A DNA stretch of 20,991 nt from a virus: IMG/VR virus record IMGVR_UViG_3300010233_000020, positions 33,460 to 54,450 of that record; one strand, given 5' to 3'. The position numbers and the translations under genes are program-made. Below the pieces are notes generated by a model, which made no database searches, was not told where the DNA came from, and worked only from the letters and a program-made list of their open reading frames with translations. Each line of letters opens with the position of its first letter. The stretch's first letter is position 1. This document shows positions 1,802-20,991 of this stretch, piece after piece.

Positions 1802-2211
1802 TGGATAACAACACACTACACGGAATGCTTCTCGGAGTATCGGAAGGGGATGAGCTATCTTGTCTCGCTCTTTCCGATTACCTAGAAGACCACGGAGAGC
1901 AAATGCTCAATCTCAAAGTCGGGGAACAGTATCTTTTCGAGACTGCACGCTGGTACTATCTGGGAAGAATCAGTGAAGTCAGTGCAATGGGATTCAAAAT
2001 CGAAAATGCAGTTCTCCTCCACTGGATCGGAGATATGCCCACACTACTCGAATCTGGTGACTACTCAACAGAGGATGAGGTTTCTCCCATCCCCGATGGA
2101 GCAACGTTCTCTTTTCTCATGTTGATTGGTCCCCCAATTCCATTCCGTCATGAAATCGACAGAAAGAGAACACACGAACCTCAGGAAAAGAAAAGGAGGA
2201 ATCGCAAATGA
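1801..2211 (+). CDS. hypothetical protein with 'LSDYLEDHGE' motif
   Basis: A 136-residue protein. Residues about 19-34 read DELSCLALSDYLEDHG, which resembles the signature of small repeat-companion domains (consensus like 'LADWLEERGD') that I associate with planctomycetes and their phages. The same idea recurs in the genes at 13849 and 14256. The tail is very basic (DRKRTHEPQEKKRRNRK). An AAGGAGG at 2193-2199 inside its 3' end serves the next gene, whose ATG overlaps its TGA. Confidence 0.65.
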   Translation: MDNNTLHGMLLGVSEGDELSCLALSDYLEDHGEQMLNLKVGEQYLFETARWYYLGRISEVSAMGFKIENAVLLHWIGDMPTLLESGDYSTEDEVSPIPDGATFSFLMLIGPPIPFRHEIDRKRTHEPQEKKRRNRK

Positions 2212-2489
2212 TTGGATCATTGTTGGCTATCGAACTGGAAGACGATTATTGGTACGAAGCAAGAGCAAGAGCAAGAGCAGGAGCAGGAGCAAGAGCAAGA
2301 GCAGGAGCAGGAGCAAGAGCAGGAGCAGGAGCAGAAGCAGGAGCAAGAGCAGGAGCAAGAGCAGGAGCAGGAGCAAGAGCAAGAGCAGGAGCAGGAGCAA
2401 GAGCAAGAGCAGGAGCAAGAGCAGGAGCAGGAGCAAGAGCAGGAGCAAGAGCAAGAGCAAGAGCAAGAGCAGGAGCAATCGAAGAATGA
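2208..2489 (+). CDS. Ala-Arg/Ala-Gly dipeptide-repeat protein
   Basis: A 93-residue protein. A unique 17-residue N-terminus (MIGSLLAIELEDDYWYE) is followed by about 36 dipeptide steps of Ala-Arg or Ala-Gly (one Ala-Glu), ending AIEE. By my count about 18 steps are Arg, all AGA codons, and 17 are Gly. I chose this frame because of the AAGGAGG at 2193-2199 and the ATGA overlap with the upstream gene. The other frames of the array are also open (Glu-Gln, or Ser-Arg/Ser-Lys). The product would be extremely basic and disordered; nucleic-acid binding is a guess. The AGA load fits the tRNA-Arg(UCU) encoded at 5069. Confidence 0.6.
   Translation: MIGSLLAIELEDDYWYEARARARAGAGARARAGAGARAGAGAEAGARAGARAGAGARARAGAGARARAGARAGAGARAGARARARARAGAIEE
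2259..2477. repeat. hexamer array (GCA-RGA)n, about 36 units
   Basis: A 219-bp tandem array of GCAAGA and GCAGGA hexamers, with one GCAGAA, inside the gene at 2208. The only variation is essentially A/G at the fourth base of the unit. No stop codon arises in any forward frame (Ala-Arg/Gly, Glu-Gln, Ser-Arg/Lys), and the reverse frames give Leu runs or Ser-Cys runs. Such arrays expand and contract by slippage, so copy number may differ between isolates or assemblies. Confidence 0.9.
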
Positions 2490-2759
2490 ACACAACGAAA
2501 TGGATCAAAAAATCCGACAAGTACGCTGAGTTGAGGTCCTTTCTGGATTCGTTTTCAACTCGAAAGGTATGATAGTTGGGGAAATGAAGCAACAGAATGG
2601 AAACTGTTCGCTACTCCCGACCTCTGTACTCCAATCACAACATTCGATGCTACTCTGTCGATGAATGACGCTATCCGCTGTGCAACGGTCTGGATCAAAC
2701 AGGAAATGGGGGAATGGATGGAGAAGCTAATTCCCCCTCTGATGGAGAAAACGACATGA
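2486..2759 (+). pseudogene. small hypothetical gene with apparent +1 frameshift
   Basis: ATG 2486 lies in an ATGA overlap with the repeat gene and opens a 28-residue frame (MNTTKWIKKSDKYAELR...) that stops at 2572. The next frame, from 2535 to 2759, is a convincing protein with no start codon near its beginning (FWIRFQLERYDSWGNEATEW onward, ending PPLMEKTT), and its TGA forms an ATGA overlap with the next gene at 2756. Joining the two by a +1 shift at about 2535-2545 gives one coherent protein of about 90 residues. This may be a real mutation, an assembly error next to the hexamer array, or programmed frameshifting. Confidence 0.55.
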
Positions 2760-2971
2760 GCGGAGGATTTTTCTATTATCATGCAGGACACCTCGCTATC
2801 GACGCTTCCCGTCCTTGGCAAGTCTGCTCTCTGCTCGGATGTGTTCTTGCGAAGCTGGACAGCGAAGCGAAAGCAATTGCTGCTGTCGATGCACTGACGG
2901 AGGACAAGCAGAAGGGTATCCTTCCCTGCAACCTCTCAACATGGGACAGGAAATCCGTACTGGAGAATTAG
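2756..2971 (+). CDS. hypothetical protein
   Basis: A 71-residue protein starting in an ATGA overlap with the preceding broken gene. The sequence is compact and soluble (SGGFFYYHAGHLAIDASRPW; then CSLLGCVLAKLDSEAKAIAA), with a final DRKSVLEN. There is no recognisable family. Its intact coupling to the stop of the frameshifted gene upstream argues that the second half of that gene is, or recently was, translated. Confidence 0.65.
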   Translation: MSGGFFYYHAGHLAIDASRPWQVCSLLGCVLAKLDSEAKAIAAVDALTEDKQKGILPCNLSTWDRKSVLEN

Positions 2972-2973
2972 CA

Positions 2974-3183
2974 ATGACGGAACAAGAGCTAGGTATGATT
3001 CTGGAACAACATGACAGAATGGTTCATTACCTTGAGCAAATCAAAAAATATGTTCTTACATTCAAACACAGAGACCAAACCAATTTCATCATTGAGCAGA
3101 TTGACAGGTGCGTTGACGCTGCATTCTCCACTCCTGAAAAGGATCATACAGACTTCACTGGTGTTGTGAGGAAGCTACCATGA
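2974..3183 (+). CDS. small helical hypothetical protein
   Basis: A 69-residue protein that looks mostly helical (TEQELGMILEQHDRMVHYL; then IKKYVLTFKHRDQTNFIIEQ), with no motif I recognise. It starts two bases after the stop of the previous gene and ends in an ATGA overlap with the gene at 3180. A longer reading of this frame from 2815 exists, but its extra N-terminus is a Cys-rich shadow of the gene at 2756. Confidence 0.65.
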   Translation: MTEQELGMILEQHDRMVHYLEQIKKYVLTFKHRDQTNFIIEQIDRCVDAAFSTPEKDHTDFTGVVRKLP

Positions 3184-3569
3184 AATACGCTGAAATCATC
3201 CTGGGGAAGACATACAATGTTCTCCTCTCAGGAAAGATCAGAAGTGTGAAACTTATCGGGGAGCATCACGCGGGGGGATTCTTCGGAGTGAACCTCACGA
3301 CAGGGAGGGAAGTCCGTATCCCCTCCGCCAAGATGATCCTGAAGGAATGTCCAGAACCCAAAACACTCCCATTCGGACACACGGATACAGTAGAGGTTAC
3401 GCTTGTGAGGGGAGATGACTTCACCCGTATCCTCTGTCGCTGTCCATCCGATGATAGCTGCCCTCTGGAGGAATTCGAGAAGGTCGGATCAACGCTGACG
3501 CTAGGGGAATGGACACGACAGGAGGGGTGGGAGATTCTTTCGTATCGTCCTGTGGAGGTAATCCGATGA
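3180..3569 (+). CDS. hypothetical protein, probable small beta-barrel
   Basis: A 129-residue protein. Residues 1-55 look like a small beta-barrel (KTYNVLLSGKIRSVKLIGEH; GGFFGVNLTTGREVRIPSAK), a pattern common in phage proteins that bind nucleic acid or protein, without any clear family. The second half is a separate beta-rich segment with Cys residues (RILCRCPSDDSCPLEEFEK). It is coupled by ATGA overlaps to both neighbours (starts 3180 and 3566). Confidence 0.65.
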   Translation: MKYAEIILGKTYNVLLSGKIRSVKLIGEHHAGGFFGVNLTTGREVRIPSAKMILKECPEPKTLPFGHTDTVEVTLVRGDDFTRILCRCPSDDSCPLEEFEKVGSTLTLGEWTRQEGWEILSYRPVEVIR

Positions 3570-3826
3570 GCGAGCTTCAAGGTGCAATTGATACAGGAAC
3601 ACTTGAGGAAATCTCAACCATCCTCACTCGATTAAAAGACCTTCCTAATTTCGCTTCAATCATCCTGACAGATTTTGAGGAAGATTATGCAGAAGCGAGA
3701 CGAGCAGAAATCGCAGCAAGATTGAAAAGGATCAAAGCAAGAGCAACAGCGGAACGAGTATTGAAGAAATGCAAACAGACGTGGACAGCAGAACAAATCG
3801 AGGAAGCAACGGGATACAAACTATGA
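3566..3826 (+). CDS. hypothetical protein, basic C-terminal tail
   Basis: An 86-residue protein. The N-terminal half is acidic and helical (ISTILTRLKDLPNFASIIL; DFEEDYAEARRAEIAARL); the C-terminal half is basic (KRIKARATAERVLKKCKQ) and ends WTAEQIEEATGYKL, a short helix-turn-helix-like tail resembling the end of the gene at 1292. DNA binding is possible but unproven. ATGA overlaps link it to both neighbours. Confidence 0.65.
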   Translation: MSELQGAIDTGTLEEISTILTRLKDLPNFASIILTDFEEDYAEARRAEIAARLKRIKARATAERVLKKCKQTWTAEQIEEATGYKL

Positions 3827-4167
3827 AACGCACTATCAAACTATCGACCTGGATCGAACTCCTCAAGTACACAAAGGGGAAGGATTGTTTGTGGGGATGG
3901 TGGTTCTGCAAGACAAATCGTCCAGACATGACTCTGTATCCGACAAGAGAAGAAGCAATGAATGCTGCTACTCCTGTTCTTAAAACAAGAATGGAACAAC
4001 GATACGCTTCTATCGAATGTGAAGATGAGGTTGAAATCGAACAGGATGACCCTCCTCTCATCGAATATGGATTGAAAAGAGTGAAGTTGCTGCAACGGGG
4101 AGAGAAGCGACGGAGAGCAGGAGGACACGGATACTCAGGAGGAGATGGATTTGTAAGACTGGACTAA
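3823..4167 (+). CDS. hypothetical protein
   Basis: A 114-residue protein. It has a Trp-rich N-terminal module (STWIELLKYTKGKDCLWGWW), an acidic linker (ECEDEVEIEQDDPPLIEYG), and a basic, Gly-rich tail (LQRGEKRRRAGGHGYSGGDG). The style of the N-terminal part (a short 'W-I-x-L/x-Y' strand pair followed by an EEA-type helix) recalls the small protein at 4664, so both may be small alpha/beta domains. It is the last gene of this operon; a 264-bp non-coding gap follows. Confidence 0.65.
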   Translation: MKRTIKLSTWIELLKYTKGKDCLWGWWFCKTNRPDMTLYPTREEAMNAATPVLKTRMEQRYASIECEDEVEIEQDDPPLIEYGLKRVKLLQRGEKRRRAGGHGYSGGDGFVRLD

Positions 4168-4254
4168 TCGCTCTAGGACTGTCGATCCTCCCTCAGACGC
4201 ATTCCGTATCAGTTTTCCCCTCTTTCGAGCTTTTAGACGCTGTTCTGTCAATCT

Positions 4255-4283
4255 GGAGAGGGATAACAACATTTCCCCTCTCC
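4255..4283 (+). terminator. hairpin in the 4168-4431 gap, possible terminator
   Basis: GGAGAGGG at 4255-4262 pairs with CCCTCTCC at 4276-4283 around a 13-base loop. There is no long T-run after it, so it is a weak candidate for an intrinsic terminator, but its place between the end of one operon and the promoter at 4362 fits. The rest of 4168-4361 shows no gene; an imperfect inverted repeat (ATTTTCGA with TCGAGAAAAT, about 4326-4347) just upstream of the promoter could be a protein-binding site. Confidence 0.4.
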
Positions 4284-4361
4284 GTTCAATCACTTCCCTT
4301 GACTCCCATACTGAACAACTGTATAAATTTTCGAGCAATCGAGAAAATCTCGGATTCGGGT

Positions 4362-4398
4362 TTGACAAACAGGAAACAGGGAGTATATTTCCTGTGTA
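4362..4398 (+). promoter_or_regulatory. sigma-70-type promoter with shared start-site motif (site A)
   Basis: TTGACA at 4362-4367, a 16-base spacer and TATATT at 4384-4389. The spacer ends ACAGGGAG and the -10 is followed at once by TCCTGTGTA, the same arrangement as at 5158, 9395 and 16187. It should drive the gene at 4432 and those that follow, through the tRNA. Confidence 0.8.
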
Positions 4399-4431
4399 GA
4401 GAAGAACGAAACGACTAGACAGGAGACTCAG

Positions 4432-4659
4432 ATGCGAAGCCGCTACAGACTCATGCCGAAGAAGAAGCCTCAGAGCTTCAACGCTTCCTGTCTGCAAGTC
4501 AGGAGAGCATACGAGAATCATTTCGGAATCCTGATTGGTTCGATGAGCTATCAGGAAGCCGGGAACATTCTTGTCAAGGAAATGGGACTGGAAGCTGCTC
4601 AGACGTTCATCCTGTCTCAGAGCAACGATCCGAACACAGTCGAAACACTCAGGGGTTAA
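4432..4659 (+). CDS. hypothetical protein
   Basis: A 75-residue, basic protein (MRSRYRLMPKKKPQSFNASC...), first gene after promoter A, with AGGAG at 4421-4425. The second half is helical (YQEAGNILVKEMGLEAAQTF). No family is recognised. As the promoter-proximal gene of its unit it may be expressed at a high level early, but that is inference. Confidence 0.7.
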   Translation: MRSRYRLMPKKKPQSFNASCLQVRRAYENHFGILIGSMSYQEAGNILVKEMGLEAAQTFILSQSNDPNTVETLRG

Positions 4660-4663
4660 TCCG

Positions 4664-4858
4664 ATGTACGAGCTTTTCCTTCGTCCCTCTGATGCGAAGC
4701 GAACCCGGAAAGAGAACTGGATTCACTACGGGGACTTCTCATCCGAAATCGCTGCTGCCATGTTCGCTCGGAACAAGATGGGACGATCCGACAAGAATTT
4801 CTACGTCAAGTACGTTGACAAGCCCAAGACAACGGGCGTTCTGGAGCTGGATAGCTAA
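4664..4858 (+). CDS. small hypothetical protein
   Basis: A 64-residue protein starting four bases after the previous stop, just after GGGGTTAATCCG. It reads as a compact alpha/beta domain: strand (YELFLRPSD), strand (WIHYGDFSS), helix (EIAAAMFARNKM), strand (NFYVKYVDKP). That layout suggests a very small single-domain binding protein. The function is unknown. Confidence 0.7.
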   Translation: MYELFLRPSDAKRTRKENWIHYGDFSSEIAAAMFARNKMGRSDKNFYVKYVDKPKTTGVLELDS

Positions 4859-4870
4859 GGAGTCTTTTCG

Positions 4871-5062
4871 ATGCTCAATGAATTCAAAACCCTACAAGCA
4901 GGTGCGGAAACTGTCCTTCTGGAAGTGGGGGAAGTCCTCTTCGATTTCCAGCGAGGGGAGAAGCAGGAATGTCTGATAACACTCGCTCAGACAATCCGCG
5001 ACCTGGAAACGCTCCTGCAACAGACAAAACGTCTTCACTCAGTTATCGAAGGAATGGAATGA
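4871..5062 (+). CDS. small coiled-coil hypothetical protein
   Basis: A 63-residue helical protein with a good ribosome-binding site (TAAGGAG just before the start). It has heptad-like spacing of Leu and Val (LQAGAETVLLEVGEVLFDF; LITLAQTIRDLETLLQQTKR) and would form a helical hairpin or coiled coil. The tRNA begins six bases after its stop, so the tRNA is probably processed from the same transcript. Confidence 0.7.
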   Translation: MLNEFKTLQAGAETVLLEVGEVLFDFQRGEKQECLITLAQTIRDLETLLQQTKRLHSVIEGME

Positions 5063-5068
5063 CTACTT

Positions 5069-5143
5069 GACTCCGTAGCGCAGTCTGGATAGAGCAATCG
5101 GCCTCTACCCGATAGGTCGTAGGTTCAAATCCTACCGGAGTTA
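5069..5143 (+). tRNA. tRNA-Arg(UCU)
   Basis: A full cloverleaf can be folded: acceptor GACTCCG/CGGAGTT (first pair G-U), D arm GCGC/GAGC (one G-A mismatch), anticodon stem ATCGG/CCGAT with loop CCTCTAC, five-base variable loop, and T arm GTAGG/CCTAC with loop TTCAAAT; discriminator A, no encoded CCA. The anticodon UCU reads AGA and AGG, both used heavily here. Oddly, position 33 is C and not the near-universal U. It lies between two small genes, just before promoter C. Confidence 0.88.
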
Positions 5144-5157
5144 TTCGGATTTTGCAG

Positions 5158-5180
5158 ACAGAGACTATAATCCCTGTGTA
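5158..5180 (+). promoter_or_regulatory. promoter with shared start-site motif (site C)
   Basis: ACAGAGAC, then a consensus TATAAT at 5166-5171, then CCCTGTGTA; this matches sites A, B and D. The -35 is poor (TTCGGA at 5144-5149 with a 16-base spacer is the best). The 12-mer CCTGTGTACAGG at 5173-5184 is nearly palindromic, and its exact reverse complement lies in the spacer of site B, so it may be an operator. It precedes the gene at 5197. Confidence 0.65.
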
Positions 5181-8239: not shown

Positions 8240-9319
8240 ATGGCGACAAACAATCTGACCGCTCAACAGTCCTACGTCAAGCTCATTGAACTTCGGGACC
8301 ATTCAGGAGCAACGATTTTCGAGAGACTCAAGCTCGCTGATCGTCTCCTCTCCGACAGGGAATGGGTACATCTCCCGGAAGGAGGGGGAGGAGACGAGAG
8401 CAAGGCAATTGATCGTCTGGAGGACAATGCTTTCGGGGATATCAAATACAAAAACGAATCTGATGATATAGACTTCAGTGATTTTCTACCAATTCACGAT
8501 CAGAAAACGCAGGCGTTCGCCAACTATGTCTCTGGATTCGCAGATGGAGAAGGTTCTTTTATGCTCAGGGTATTAAGGGAAGATACTGAACTTCCCGTAA
8601 TTCTGGGAGCGGAATTTGCTATTGTTTTGAGAGCTGATGATGCGGATATCCTCTACAAAATCAAAAAATTCTTCAACTGTGGAGTGGTCAACCTCCACCC
8701 TGGAAGAAAAGCCGCCAATAACGTAGCTCATTACAGAGTGGGAAATTCGGTCGATTTAGTAGCTAACATCATCCCTCATTTTGACAGATACCCATTAAGA
8801 GCGAAAAAACTACGGGACTACGAATTGTGGAAGAGAGGAGTAGAAATCATCTACACCATCAGATGCAGACCCGGAAGGAAGGGGAAATTGTACATTCCGC
8901 AAAGGACAAACGATGAGATTGTTGAATTCATCAGACTCAGAGATTCCATCCGAGAAGGCAGAAAATACACTCAAGAACGTACTGCATCAAACAACCCCTC
9001 TATCAGCGGAGCATTGTCGCTCCCCGAAATGCTCGATATCCTCAAGGGAGTTCCCCAACTGAGTCAATGGAAAGCGATGAAGTTCAATCTCCGCAAGCTC
9101 CATATGGAGATGAAGGGACGACAGAAAGCGAAGACCCACCCTACTGCTCCTATCTCTCCTCCGAGAGAACCCAGGACGATTGAGGAGAAGTACAAAGCAG
9201 TCCAGAATGAAAAGCAACTGCTACTCCGGGAGATTGCTGACCTCAAGCGGGAGAACAGGAGACTCCGAACAGCAGTCAGCAACCTCCAGCAAGCAATGAA
9301 TAACCTGCAACTCACTTGA
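8240..9319 (+). CDS. coiled-coil phage protein interrupted by an in-frame LAGLIDADG endonuclease domain
   Basis: A 359-residue protein in three parts. Residues 1-67 and about 254-359 look like one phage protein (IFERLKLADRLLSDREW; then SLPEMLDILKGVPQLSQWKA) ending in a coiled coil (about 312-355). Between them, about 68-253 is a single-motif LAGLIDADG domain: VSGFADGEGSF at 97-107, with the acidic Asp of the active site, and the family's C-terminal signature (HFDRYPLRAKKLRDYELW) at 180-197. Single-motif enzymes act as dimers. No intein splicing block and no room for a group I ribozyme is visible, so the domain probably stays in the product. AAGGAA precedes ATG 8240. The role of the carrier protein is unknown. 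Confidence 0.75.
   Translation: MATNNLTAQQSYVKLIELRDHSGATIFERLKLADRLLSDREWVHLPEGGGGDESKAIDRLEDNAFGDIKYKNESDDIDFSDFLPIHDQKTQAFANYVSGFADGEGSFMLRVLREDTELPVILGAEFAIVLRADDADILYKIKKFFNCGVVNLHPGRKAANNVAHYRVGNSVDLVANIIPHFDRYPLRAKKLRDYELWKRGVEIIYTIRCRPGRKGKLYIPQRTNDEIVEFIRLRDSIREGRKYTQERTASNNPSISGALSLPEMLDILKGVPQLSQWKAMKFNLRKLHMEMKGRQKAKTHPTAPISPPREPRTIEEKYKAVQNEKQLLLREIADLKRENRRLRTAVSNLQQAMNNLQLT
8441..8998 (+). mobile_element. in-frame LAGLIDADG homing endonuclease insertion (approximate limits)
   Basis: The segment encodes the endonuclease part of the gene at 8240. Its limits are set by where protein style changes, from 'LEDNAFGD' (acidic carrier sequence) to 'IKYKNESDDIDFSDF' on the left, and from 'TASNNPS' to 'ISGALSLPEMLDIL' on the right; they could be off by some 10 codons. 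Its codons look more A+T-rich than the flanks, consistent with foreign origin. Confidence 0.6.
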
Positions 9320-14621: not shown

Positions 14622-14715
14622 AGAAATCCTAGATGAATACAACATCTCCACTGCTCCTGAAGGACATCAATTCACAGAAGATGTTCCCAGCTTTTGCCCG
14701 ATACAATCCTTTTAA
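14611..14715 (+). pseudogene. displaced 5' fragment of the primase gene
   Basis: ATG 14611 opens a 34-residue frame whose first 20 codons (MTIEEILDEYNISTAPEGHQ) match the start of the intact primase at 15295 (MTIQEILDEYNI, then a similar Gly/His stretch). From codon 21 on, the sequence is the 3' end of the minus-strand HNH gene, and the frame stops at 14715. Over the first 13 codons the two DNA copies differ at 9 of 39 bases, 7 of them silent, so they are homologous but not a recent duplicate. Confidence 0.75.
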
Positions 14716-15208
14716 CAGTTCCGCGAGAAATACCGAATTTTTGAGAACACATTGTATAAAAAGCTCCTACATATTTAGCAGTTCCTCCAGATTTGAAATT
14801 TGCTCGCATCCATAAAACATCTTCAGATTTCAATAGTACCATACCGTTTCGTGTTCCTCTATTACTAACACCATGATCGACGCGATCTTTCATATTTTCT
14901 TCTCGCGTTCCCCACGCTAGGTTTTCTAAATTGTTGTTTCCCGGGTTCCCGTCGAGATGTCTGCACTCCATTCCTTCAGGGCATGGACCAACAAAAGCCA
15001 TGAGAATGAGACGGTGAAGCATGATACTTTTGTTATTCTTCTTGCTCCCAATATTAATCGAAATATGCCCAGATTTTAGGTGTCTACCATGTAATTCCTT
15101 CCATCCCTTACTGGTCCACTTGTAATACGAACCATTATCACCGACGCAACGATCAGGACGATTGATGCAGTACAGTCTTTTGTAGCGGATACTAGAATTC
15201 TCAGACAT
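14672..15208 (-). CDS. HNH homing endonuclease with C-terminal DNA-binding repeat
   Basis: A 178-residue protein, the only clear minus-strand gene here, with GGGAG before its ATG. The N-terminal part (YYKWTSKGWKELHGRHLKSG) is a NUMOD4-like module. The HNH core is LHRLILMAFVG...MECRHLDGNPGNNNLENLAW at about residues 64-98 ('L-H-R', 'C-R-H-L-D-G-x-x-x-N-N', 'N-L-x-x-x-x-W'). The C-terminal part (LLKSEDVLWMRANFKSGG; then KFGISRGTVKRIVSGKSW) is a helix-turn-helix binding repeat typical of phage HNH homing enzymes. It should nick or cut an uninterrupted primase gene. Confidence 0.85.
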   Translation of the reverse strand: MSENSSIRYKRLYCINRPDRCVGDNGSYYKWTSKGWKELHGRHLKSGHISINIGSKKNNKSIMLHRLILMAFVGPCPEGMECRHLDGNPGNNNLENLAWGTREENMKDRVDHGVSNRGTRNGMVLLKSEDVLWMRANFKSGGTAKYVGAFYTMCSQKFGISRGTVKRIVSGKSWEHLL

Positions 15209-18768: not shown

Positions 18769-20991
18769 ATGATCGAAGTAAGGGACGGTACCCGAGAGCG
18801 TCGAATTCTTGTCTCTCTCGTCACAGATGCGACAGTGCTAGGGAGGATTGCAGCGAAATGGGACGGGAATCTGTTCGATAGCAAATCCTCAAATCTCATC
18901 GCTTCCTGGTGTATCGAGTATTTCAGGAAGTACAGTCAACCTCCGAAGCAAGCAATCGAGCTTCAATTTGCTGAATGGTCAGAAACCCATCAGGATCATT
19001 CCGAAATCAAACGGATTGAGACTTTCCTCTCAACGCTTTCCGACGAATATGAACAGGAGAGCGAAACGAATCCCCTCCACACAATCGACATGGCGGGAGA
19101 GTTCTTCAATCGGATCAAACTCCGTCGATTAGCGGACTCCATTCAAACCGCTCTCGATAACGGGAAGCTCGAAAAAGCAGAATCAGCAATCACGACATTC
19201 TCGCGGGTGGAGATGGGAGCAGGAGCAGGAATCCATGTCTACACGGATGAGGAGGCGATCCTCTCCACATTCGCTGAGAACACAACTCAACCATTAGTCG
19301 AGTACGAAGATGCTGCTCTCAACAGGTTTTTCGGGTATTCTCTTGCAAGGGATGACTTTATTTGTTTCTGTGGTCCTCAGAAGTCAAGCAAGAGCTTTTG
19401 GTTGCTGGATATTGCTTATCGAGCAATGCTCAATCGAAAGAAGGTCGCTTATTTCCAGGTGGGAGATATGACGGAGCGACAAGTCAAGGAACGCTTCTAC
19501 ATTCGTGCTGCTGCTCATCCCCGCCGTTCTCCGACAAGGGACTGGCCATGTACGATCCGCATTCCTGAATCAATCGAGTGGGTGAAGGGAGATGACAGAG
19601 CAACAGTCAGTCATCGGGAGAAGACATTTGAAAAACCATTGGGAGGAAAGCGAGCGATCATCGCTGCTCGAAAGCTGATGGACTTCCGGGTAAAGAGCAA
19701 GCGAAGCTATTTCTGTCTTGCTGCATTCCCGAACCTGTCAATCAACGTACATGCAATTACTTCAACTCTGGAACAATGGGAGATGGAAGGATTCCTACCG
19801 GATGTAACTTGTATCGCTGAAGGCTCCCTCGTTCTTACGGATCATGGACTGATCCCCATTGAAAAAGTTTCTTGTAGTGATAGACTATGGGATGGAGTTA
19901 ACTGTGTCAATCACGACGGTCCTATCTGTAAGGGGGAACGGGATGTCATCGAATACGCCGGACTTACGGCAACACCAGAGCATGAAGTCTACACGGAACA
20001 AGGATGGAGAACCCTTGAGTCGTGCCTACGAATGGGATTACGAATTGCTCAAACCGGAAGTAGAGGGAAAGAAGTACGGATTGGCAGTAGTTTCGTCACC
20101 GATAGTTCGCATCAGGTTAACTCCGTACAAGAAATACGGTCGAATCTATCACGACAAAAAGGAATACGTTTATGTGAAATGTGTTCAATGCGGTTCCGAG
20201 AAATGGGTGATGCACAGCAATCTTCAACGAGGATTGTCAAAGGGGTGTCGTGCCTGCCTACAACCAAAAAGATTTCCAACGTGGCTTTTCGACAAATTCG
20301 AGGGAGCAAGGCAGCGGTGTCAGAATCCAAAAAGCTCCGTTTGGAAATACTACGGAGGCAGAGGAATCGAGTTTCGATTCCCTTCCGTATCGGATGCCTG
20401 TCTATGGGCATTGGAGAATTGGGGGGAGAGAGTATTGGATCGTTCGATGGAGATAGATCGCATCGACAACGACGGACACTACGAACCTGGCAATCTCAGA
20501 CTGTCAACAAGAAAGCAAAATTGCTCTCACACATCGCGTCGCCCCATCACTCCTGCCATGCACCGATTTCGTCAACTGTATCCGTATGTGACTTATGCGG
20601 ACGGGACGCTATCGGACTTTTTCGAGGATGGGATGACACCGGAACAGATCGAAGCAAGATGGAAGAAAAACAGAAACAGATGCAAAAACAGAGAGTGTGG
20701 GACGTCCTCAATGCCGGACCCCTTCATCGCTTCACAGTGCAAGGACTTCTAGTTCACAATTGCATTGACTACATGGATAACTTTGCTCCTGTTGATGCAC
20801 GGATGGAGCAGAGGGATCAAATCAACTACAACTGGAAGTACATGAAGAAGGTAGCTAATGAGCGTCACTGTCTCATTGTGACTGCTACTCAAGTGAATGC
20901 TGCGGGCTTCGGAGCGAGATGGTTAGCTAGAAAGAACTTCAGCGAGGACAACCGCAAGCTCAATCACGTTACGGGGATGATTGGGATTAAC
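18769..20991 (+). CDS. DnaB/RecA-type replicative helicase with intein (3' end beyond window)
   Basis: One frame is open from ATG 18769 to the window edge (741 codons, no stop). N-extein residues 1-347 include the P-loop at 202-209 (GPQKSSKSFWLL; Ser replaces the usual Gly of GxxxxGK[ST]) and a following VAYFQVGDM. Residues 348-664 are an intein. The C-extein resumes with CIDYMDNFAPVD, so the ligated protein reads LPDVT-CIDYMDNF, the Walker B region, followed by CLIVTATQVNAAG (sensor-like strand). It unwinds the phage replication fork with the upstream loader and primase. AAGGG-type signals are absent before the start; coupling to 17777 is likely. Confidence 0.88.
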   Translation, partial: MIEVRDGTRERRILVSLVTDATVLGRIAAKWDGNLFDSKSSNLIASWCIEYFRKYSQPPKQAIELQFAEWSETHQDHSEIKRIETFLSTLSDEYEQESETNPLHTIDMAGEFFNRIKLRRLADSIQTALDNGKLEKAESAITTFSRVEMGAGAGIHVYTDEEAILSTFAENTTQPLVEYEDAALNRFFGYSLARDDFICFCGPQKSSKSFWLLDIAYRAMLNRKKVAYFQVGDMTERQVKERFYIRAAAHPRRSPTRDWPCTIRIPESIEWVKGDDRATVSHREKTFEKPLGGKRAIIAARKLMDFRVKSKRSYFCLAAFPNLSINVHAITSTLEQWEMEGFLPDVTCIAEGSLVLTDHGLIPIEKVSCSDRLWDGVNCVNHDGPICKGERDVIEYAGLTATPEHEVYTEQGWRTLESCLRMGLRIAQTGSRGKEVRIGSSFVTDSSHQVNSVQEIRSNLSRQKGIRLCEMCSMRFREMGDAQQSSTRIVKGVSCLPTTKKISNVAFRQIRGSKAAVSESKKLRLEILRRQRNRVSIPFRIGCLSMGIGELGGESIGSFDGDRSHRQRRTLRTWQSQTVNKKAKLLSHIASPHHSCHAPISSTVSVCDLCGRDAIGLFRGWDDTGTDRSKMEEKQKQMQKQRVWDVLNAGPLHRFTVQGLLVHNCIDYMDNFAPVDARMEQRDQINYNWKYMKKVANERHCLIVTATQVNAAGFGARWLARKNFSEDNRKLNHVTGMIGIN
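19810..20760 (+). mobile_element. intein in the helicase Walker B site (317 residues)
   Basis: It starts with Cys (CIAEGSLVLTDHGLIPIEKV, block A), has block B GLTATPEHEVYTEQGW with the Thr and His used in the first splicing step, and ends in a block F/G strand (VWDVLNAGPLHRFTVQGLL, then VHN) followed by Cys+1. All residues needed for splicing are present. The splicing domains take up about residues 1-80 and 295-317. The middle, in this frame, looks like no endonuclease; the endonuclease is in another frame. Confidence 0.92.
19943..20752 (+). CDS. HNH endonuclease nested in the intein, +1 frame
   Basis: A 269-residue protein read entirely inside the intein in a different frame. ATG 19943 follows AAGGGGG (19930-19936) at six bases; the frame is open further upstream to an ATG at 19859, but without a ribosome-binding site. 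C80-x2-C83 and C102-x2-C105 (VKCVQCGSE and KGCRACLQP) form a zinc ribbon; YYGGRGIEFRF and MEIDRIDNDGHYEPGNLRLS (169-188) are the HNH core of phage-type homing enzymes (D-R-I-D, H, N-L-R). It should cut the intein-free helicase gene. The last 20 or so residues overlap the intein's own C-terminal block, so they are probably free to vary. Confidence 0.85.
   Translation: MSSNTPDLRQHQSMKSTRNKDGEPLSRAYEWDYELLKPEVEGKKYGLAVVSSPIVRIRLTPYKKYGRIYHDKKEYVYVKCVQCGSEKWVMHSNLQRGLSKGCRACLQPKRFPTWLFDKFEGARQRCQNPKSSVWKYYGGRGIEFRFPSVSDACLWALENWGERVLDRSMEIDRIDNDGHYEPGNLRLSTRKQNCSHTSRRPITPAMHRFRQLYPYVTYADGTLSDFFEDGMTPEQIEARWKKNRNRCKNRECGTSSMPDPFIASQCKDF

Follow-up and report, generated by a model that had tools for sequence, protein, structure and literature searches.

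A putative HNH homing endonuclease gene overprinted on a phage helicase intein, and its recurrence among related inteins

We analyzed a stretch of viral DNA of 20,991 nucleotides (IMG/VR record IMGVR_UViG_3300010233_000020, positions 33,460 to 54,450; the whole stretch is referred to below as the window) and found in its helicase gene an intein that is open in the helicase frame throughout and that encloses an HNH endonuclease gene in the +1 frame. Taken as a whole, this arrangement is very probably an overprinted splicing intein with an internally initiated +1 HNH homing endonuclease. According to this model, the Walker-B region of a DnaB-like phage helicase is occupied by a mobile intein. 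The host frame would yield one long precursor. Its intein ends, about 84 residues on the N-terminal side and 37 on the C-terminal side, would fold into a splicing domain that cuts itself out and joins the helicase parts, the middle of about 200 residues forming an unstructured loop where the endonuclease usually sits. On the same mRNA, ribosomes would start internally at ATG 19943 and make a separate +1 HNH endonuclease; this protein would cut or nick intein-less helicase alleles, and repair would copy the intein in. The splicing frame, for its part, is under selection that excludes any synonymous HNH codon creating a stop. The two frames, the avoidance of stops, the switch of constraint between frames and the empty sites are established at the level of sequence analysis. 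Splicing, internal initiation, expression of the HNH protein, site-specific cleavage or nicking, and homing are inferred, without protein-level evidence; the relatives make this inference strong, not certain.

The host ORF begins at 18769 on the plus strand and is stop-free up to the end of the window (Table 1). Its residues 348-664 form an insertion in which intein blocks A, B, F and G can be recognized, together with the splicing signature (C1, the TxxH motif at T55..H58, H316-N317 and C+1). The sequence-only reading of this DNA had described an insertion of 317 codons, open in the helicase frame and equipped with intein blocks, and its limits of 19810-20760 proved exact, from Cys1 (19810-19812) to Asn317 (20758-20760) and followed by Cys+1. 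The N-extein ends in ...LPDVT, where a Walker-B-like strand begins. Five residues of the N-terminal half (C1, T10, G13, T55 and H58) are invariant in the alignment, and D298, N301, G303, F308 and N317 of the C-terminal half are invariant in the relatives. A single ORF carries both halves here, unlike the layout of a split intein or fractured gene.

Table 1. Coordinates of the helicase gene, the intein and the HNH gene in the window
Feature	Position	Strand and frame	Basis or remark
N-extein, DnaB-like replicative helicase, 347 aa	18769..19809	+	phrog_19, E=1.6e-14; flush alignment with intein-less homologues
Intein, 317 codons, stop-free in helicase frame	19810..20760	+	Conservation in relatives; AF2 and Foldseek
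N-terminal splicing half: block A (CIAEGSLVLTDHG) and block B (TATPEHEVYTEQGW, TxxH at T55/H58)	19810..20055	+	Alignment; AF2 pLDDT 89-95
Shine-Dalgarno-like AAGGGGG for HNH, over intein codons K-G-E	19930..19936	+	Duplex energy; function inferred
HNH homing endonuclease gene (putative), 269 aa	19943..20752	+, +1 frame	phrog_374, phrog_3377; start inferred
Intein-frame middle, stop-free shadow of HNH gene, predicted disordered	20056..20691	+	pLDDT, stop counts, codon-position mismatches
Zinc-ribbon part of HNH protein (CVQC...CRAC)	20180..20257	+, +1 frame	C-x2-C...C-x2-C; four Cys conserved in relatives
HNH-family core motif DRIDNDGHYEPGN	20456..20494	+, +1 frame	Nearly invariant
C-terminal splicing half, blocks F and G (VWDVLNAGPLHRFTVQGLLVHN)	20692..20760	+	AF2 pLDDT 91-93
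Helicase C-extein from Cys+1 (CIDYMDNFAP...)	20761..20991	+	ORF; flush alignment; continues beyond window

In the AF2 model of the intein frame, pLDDT is near or above 90 toward the two ends (residues 1-80 and, approximately, 290-317), whereas almost the entire stretch 84-279 falls below 50; both ends of the intein are thus modeled as a splicing fold, with the middle predicted to be disordered. The top Foldseek matches of this model were all inteins, the best being the Mtu RecA mini-intein (E=2e-4), indicating a HINT fold. This mini-intein (PDB 2IN9, 5I0A) is the nearest solved structure to the splicing halves of the window in both fold and sequence but, unlike the window intein, has no endonuclease shadow loop. 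The middle of the intein frame had been said to resemble no enzyme, and it indeed matched no Pfam, PHROG or NCBIfam family; a match to phrog_26005 in this frame is limited to the block B region. It is 30% identical to L002 and L003, which is probably a by-product of the conservation of the HNH protein.

The HNH reading frame lies +1 relative to the host frame; its ORF spans 19859..20752, the frame being open from about 19853, and it ends at a TAG stop at 20750-20752, inside intein block G. Two PHROG profiles match its product (phrog_374, E=7e-20; phrog_3377, E=1.5e-16), and the zinc-ribbon cysteines recur in the relatives, in agreement with the earlier description of an HNH protein with a zinc ribbon in the +1 frame. 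No Pfam HNH family matched, and the profile matches are to PHROG only. The AF2 model of this frame is of good confidence (mean pLDDT 85); Foldseek found no PDB structure matching it at E<=0.001, and the HNH homing endonuclease 1U3E gave a weak sequence match (E=0.65). Because no solved structure matches the model, the HNH label rests on sequence profiles, and a His-Me finger fold like that of solved HNH enzymes is putative. The DNA of the HNH core motif reads HRQRR-LRT in the intein frame, where the family has the shadow motif R-QRR-LR.

We then compared stop counts with a null model in which the HNH protein was held fixed, its own synonymous codons were permuted and stops were counted in the intein frame. 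Over 204 codons of the window (about 20051-20662) we found no intein-frame stops, against 9.4 expected, and none of 100,000 permutations contained fewer than two. The chance estimate of the sequence-only reading, (61/64)^214, used too simple a null, and the selection that it had been taken to imply is upheld by the permutation. Across 97 clusters (<90% identity; 18,444 codons) the count was again zero, against 813.6 expected, and T at the HNH third position before AA, AG or GA codons occurred in 0 of 3666 cases, compared with 34.1% elsewhere. The controls had no such avoidance: 272 stops against 272.1 expected in the third frame of the nested HNH genes, 568 against 615 in 52 free-standing HNH relatives, and, in two split-intein relatives discussed below, 23 against 18.9 (L019) and 14 against 15.2 (L017). 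The clusters are related to one another and pooled P values are therefore not independent tests; the zero count is nonetheless absolute. Loci were gathered by their intein N-half or HNH protein, not by an open frame to the C-half, so that openness was no selection criterion. Judged by these counts, selection keeps the intein frame stop-free.

Mismatch rates over 434 pairs, taken separately at intein codon positions 1, 2 and 3, locate the change of constraint. They are 0.27, 0.19 and 0.58 in the N-extein, 0.23, 0.12 and 0.52 in the intein N-half, 0.55, 0.28 and 0.21 in the middle, 0.14, 0.06 and 0.24 in the last 23 intein codons, and 0.25, 0.15 and 0.58 in the C-extein. The fastest position is thus intein position 3 in the exteins and splicing parts, and intein position 1 (equivalent to HNH position 3) in the middle. 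The free position switches in this way, and the DNA of the middle evolves as an HNH gene. Codon-position rates in both frames had been suggested as a check, and these rates bear out the description of the middle as a stop-free shadow of the HNH gene. The only demand on the intein frame in this region is to stay open. The alternative that the intein-frame middle is a functional domain was rejected on account of the absence of a family, the predicted disorder and the HNH-type codon-position profile; the middle follows the HNH constraint.

The best candidate start for the window HNH gene is ATG 19943 behind AAGGGGG, whose duplex with the anti-Shine-Dalgarno sequence (-11.2 kcal/mol) is the best among the candidate starts listed for the window element; this start is likely, although inferred without protein evidence, and TTG 20015 is an alternative. 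In the family, 71 of 101 clusters have an HNH-frame ATG at intein nucleotide 145 (0-based), formed from Y-D or Y-E codons and preceded by a GGAGGT-like site formed from K/R-E-V codons. Codon choice at this site departs from that of the exteins: E-V pairs use GAG in 52 of 64 cases (140 of 295, or 47%, in exteins), tyrosines use TAT, which gives the ATG, in 69 of 84 (899 of 2116, or 42%, in exteins), and the Shine-Dalgarno strength exceeds the synonymous null (mean -6.8 versus -5.5 kcal/mol). For two elements that lack an upstream stop (L106 and L131) the scan of starts read the wrong frame, which leaves these counts unchanged. Internal initiation within a translated ORF is usually inefficient. 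Mini-inteins without an HNH gene (L084/L085 and others) still have the codons that form its Shine-Dalgarno-like site and ATG; the signal may therefore be partly inherited from HNH-bearing ancestors or driven by the intein itself. Alone, it is no proof of current use.

We searched for relatives with the HNH protein as query, which found 80 loci, and with the intein N-half against viral and genome contigs, which found 155 further loci; the whole host protein as query found none. Wherever an HNH-query locus had an intein N-half just upstream, the HNH gene was out of frame with it, and the host frame was open to the C-half except in two split cases, whereas no free-standing HNH relative was overlapped by a host frame. 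The N-half query gave 121 contiguous inteins with an HNH match, every one of them in +1, together with 20 mini-inteins of about 106-143 aa without HNH and four HNH-bearing inteins cut by contig ends. Among the 121, six have a length of only 124-181 aa and retain a truncated remnant of the HNH in +1. Pooling both searches, we count 118 distinct full-length inteins with the HNH gene in +1 and four distinct ones with it in +2 (L011, L087, L091, L092); no in-frame HNH occurs among the related inteins found by either search. Intein ends similar to those of the window served as the seed of this sampling, and other intein families are outside its coverage. Within that coverage, the sequences place the out-of-frame HNH intein as a recurring architecture, in more than 100 phages and prophages. 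The host genes are mostly phage DNA polymerase I (site KIAELA/C...HN/CGYGGS), with helicases and other replication genes also represented, and named phages with the overprinted layout include Gardnerella phage AB1, Streptococcus Javan113, EBPR siphovirus 2, Shewanella SFCi1, Caulobacter RLK and APSE-1. To explain nesting, the HNH tree has to admit a minimum of two label changes over its starred branches, or six if the best tree is taken. As separate observations, one host ORF (L018:3712-5916) holds two overprinted HNH inteins, each with its own +1 HNH gene, and short inteins with a truncated +1 HNH remnant (L121, L162, L175, L207, L210, L232 and L086) represent intermediate states of decay.

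Intein-less homologues of the helicase (a paralogue beside the L002 helicase, and L250) align flush across the window site (DVV/VIDS and DVI/IIDY, versus DVT/CIDY in the window). In our reading of this alignment, the insertion site is a hydrophobic strand ending in Asp and fits the Walker B motif. These intein-less relatives are only about 30-40% identical to the window helicase, and recent homing is therefore not shown at this locus. Closer alleles exist in streptococcal PolA, where a copy with the element (L083) and one without it (L251) are 92.4% identical upstream and differ by an exact 927-bp insertion. Full elements, remnants, mini-inteins and empty sites together fit a homing cycle of gain, decay and loss, insofar as sequences alone can trace one.

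The sequence-only reading had named, as what would refute it, relatives with an intein frame broken by stops, or indels that would restore an ordinary in-frame endonuclease. About 120 relatives keep the out-of-frame layout and none is in-frame; intein-frame stops occur only in L017 and L019, both of which are split with a new C-half start and so fit the idea. In these two PolA genes (L019, Cys1 at 1287, 1287-2300; L017, at a contig start, 1-1000) the N-half frame stops soon after block B, the HNH gene follows in +1, and a C-half ORF with its own ATG (L019:2222, L017:855) overlaps the HNH 3' end. Both belong to the same intein and HNH family, and their HNH gene overlaps the N-half as well as the C-half. 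Farther downstream, each of the two contigs holds another overprinted intein, this one contiguous. This layout suggests, without showing it, that overprinted inteins can turn into split ones. We had considered the PolA inteins of L026 and L019 as contiguous and split alleles of one site, and rejected this because flank alignment places their insertion sites two codons apart; the transition is thus not directly caught. More broadly, overprinted HNH inteins may make up a lasting class of mobile elements from which split inteins naturally arise, in that loss of the stop-free constraint plus a C-half start at the HNH 3' end would give a fractured host gene and trans-splicing, L017 and L019 being such products; we regard this proposal as evenly balanced between being right and wrong.

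Several other explanations of the window element have to be weighed. The HNH protein could arise through a programmed frameshift that fuses it to the N-halves of the helicase and the intein, and the HNH frame is in fact open some way upstream of the likely start in many elements, the window included (from about 19853). The position of the last upstream HNH-frame stop varies, however, from nucleotide 25 to 202, the start and Shine-Dalgarno codons are enriched over extein codon use, and 118 of 122 elements would need a +1 shift, which is the rarer kind in bacteria; a -1 shift could not reach the +1 frame. We consider this route unlikely. Still less likely is that the HNH frame, although real, is a dead passenger whose openness is inherited, the intein now being a plain splicing element. 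Loss states do exist (mini-inteins and remnants) and no activity has been shown, but the middle keeps HNH positions 1 and 2 with position 3 free, which means that the HNH protein is under purifying selection family-wide. In the window, moreover, the core of this protein is intact, and it shares 58% identity with the L002 HNH across nearly its full length.

The remaining two explanations can scarcely be maintained. The source record is a viral contig and not an isolate, so that an ordinary in-frame HNH intein might have been disrupted by two sequencing or assembly indels; this is refuted by the relatives, since about 120 elements have the intact out-of-frame layout, isolate genomes among them (Gardnerella AB1, Streptococcus Javan113, APSE-1, Caulobacter RLK and Shewanella SFCi1), and the search turned up no relative with the HNH in frame. 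The segment could instead be a self-splicing intron with an HNH ORF, removed from the RNA and resembling an intein only by coincidence; phage group I introns often carry such ORFs. We give this no real credence: Rfam gave no group I or II match at E<=5, the splicing residues are invariant and the fold is that of an intein, the intein frame is constrained at both ends, and an intron can do without an open frame, whereas none of the 814 expected stops is present. The overprinted intein with internal initiation of the HNH gene remains the reading that we prefer.

The usual description of an intein is that of one polypeptide whose splicing domain and endonuclease domain share a frame. Canonical large inteins (LAGLIDADG or HNH) resemble the window intein in that their splicing domain is likewise interrupted at the endonuclease position and in that full, mini and empty states occur; their endonuclease is, however, a domain of the intein polypeptide, whereas in the window it is a separate +1 ORF and the in-frame middle is predicted to be disordered. 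Endonuclease genes lying between split intein halves, termed fractured genes, were reportedly described by Dassa et al. in 2009. Like the window, these have a separate endonuclease gene in the intein, and L017 and L019 are the split version; unlike them, the window intein is contiguous and its splicing frame runs through the endonuclease gene.

The closest published case is that of the ShiLan domain and Pacc40 gp60 insertions, which have an out-of-frame HNH gene and an open host frame in a phage gene, with a disjunct distribution suggesting homing (Arsenault, Gosselin, Gogarten 2025, PMC11855218). In those insertions splicing domains could not be detected, no Shine-Dalgarno site was found for the HNH gene, and the inserted segment is thought to be retained in the host protein (PMC11855218); the window element differs in that its HNH gene is bordered by splicing blocks and an intein fold, with an SD-like site ahead of its start. 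The hidden Pacc40 HNH is a distant homologue of the window HNH and sits apart in the HNH tree. The same architecture as in the window, with HNH in +1 of an intein, is present in APSE-1 (L089, NC_000935.1), whose record annotates the P46 'HNH endonuclease' (4431-4853) inside the P45 DNA polymerase (2177-5158) in another frame, as overlapping CDS; we found no paper describing P45/P46 as an overprinted intein endonuclease. More generally, our literature search found no paper on an intein with its endonuclease overprinted in another frame, although a preprint on non-canonical intein architecture in phages (Gosselin et al. 2025, doi 10.1101/2025.01.02.630785), cited in PMC11855218, may overlap.

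The family decouples splicing and endonuclease, placing one stretch of DNA under two readable constraints, an open splicing frame and a conserved HNH protein. It is a large and clean example of overlapping genes in nature, for which the free-standing and split relatives serve as internal controls. The internal Shine-Dalgarno site over intein codons is a possible answer to how hidden phage HNH genes are translated, and annotation almost always overlooks this homing element. The split relatives define a testable route from contiguous to split inteins, and split inteins are prized in protein engineering.

Elsewhere in the window, a second HNH endonuclease gene (14672-15208, minus strand) is free-standing and belongs to another group (phrog_59, E=8.5e-34). 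An ORF at 8240-9319 (plus strand) has no PHROG match and contains, by eye, a LAGLIDADG-like stretch (FANYVSGFADGEGSF); it is a third possible homing endonuclease within 21 kb. At 2208-2529 (plus strand) there is a short-unit repeat with several frames open, which read as GARA-, EQEQ- and SRSK-type repeats.
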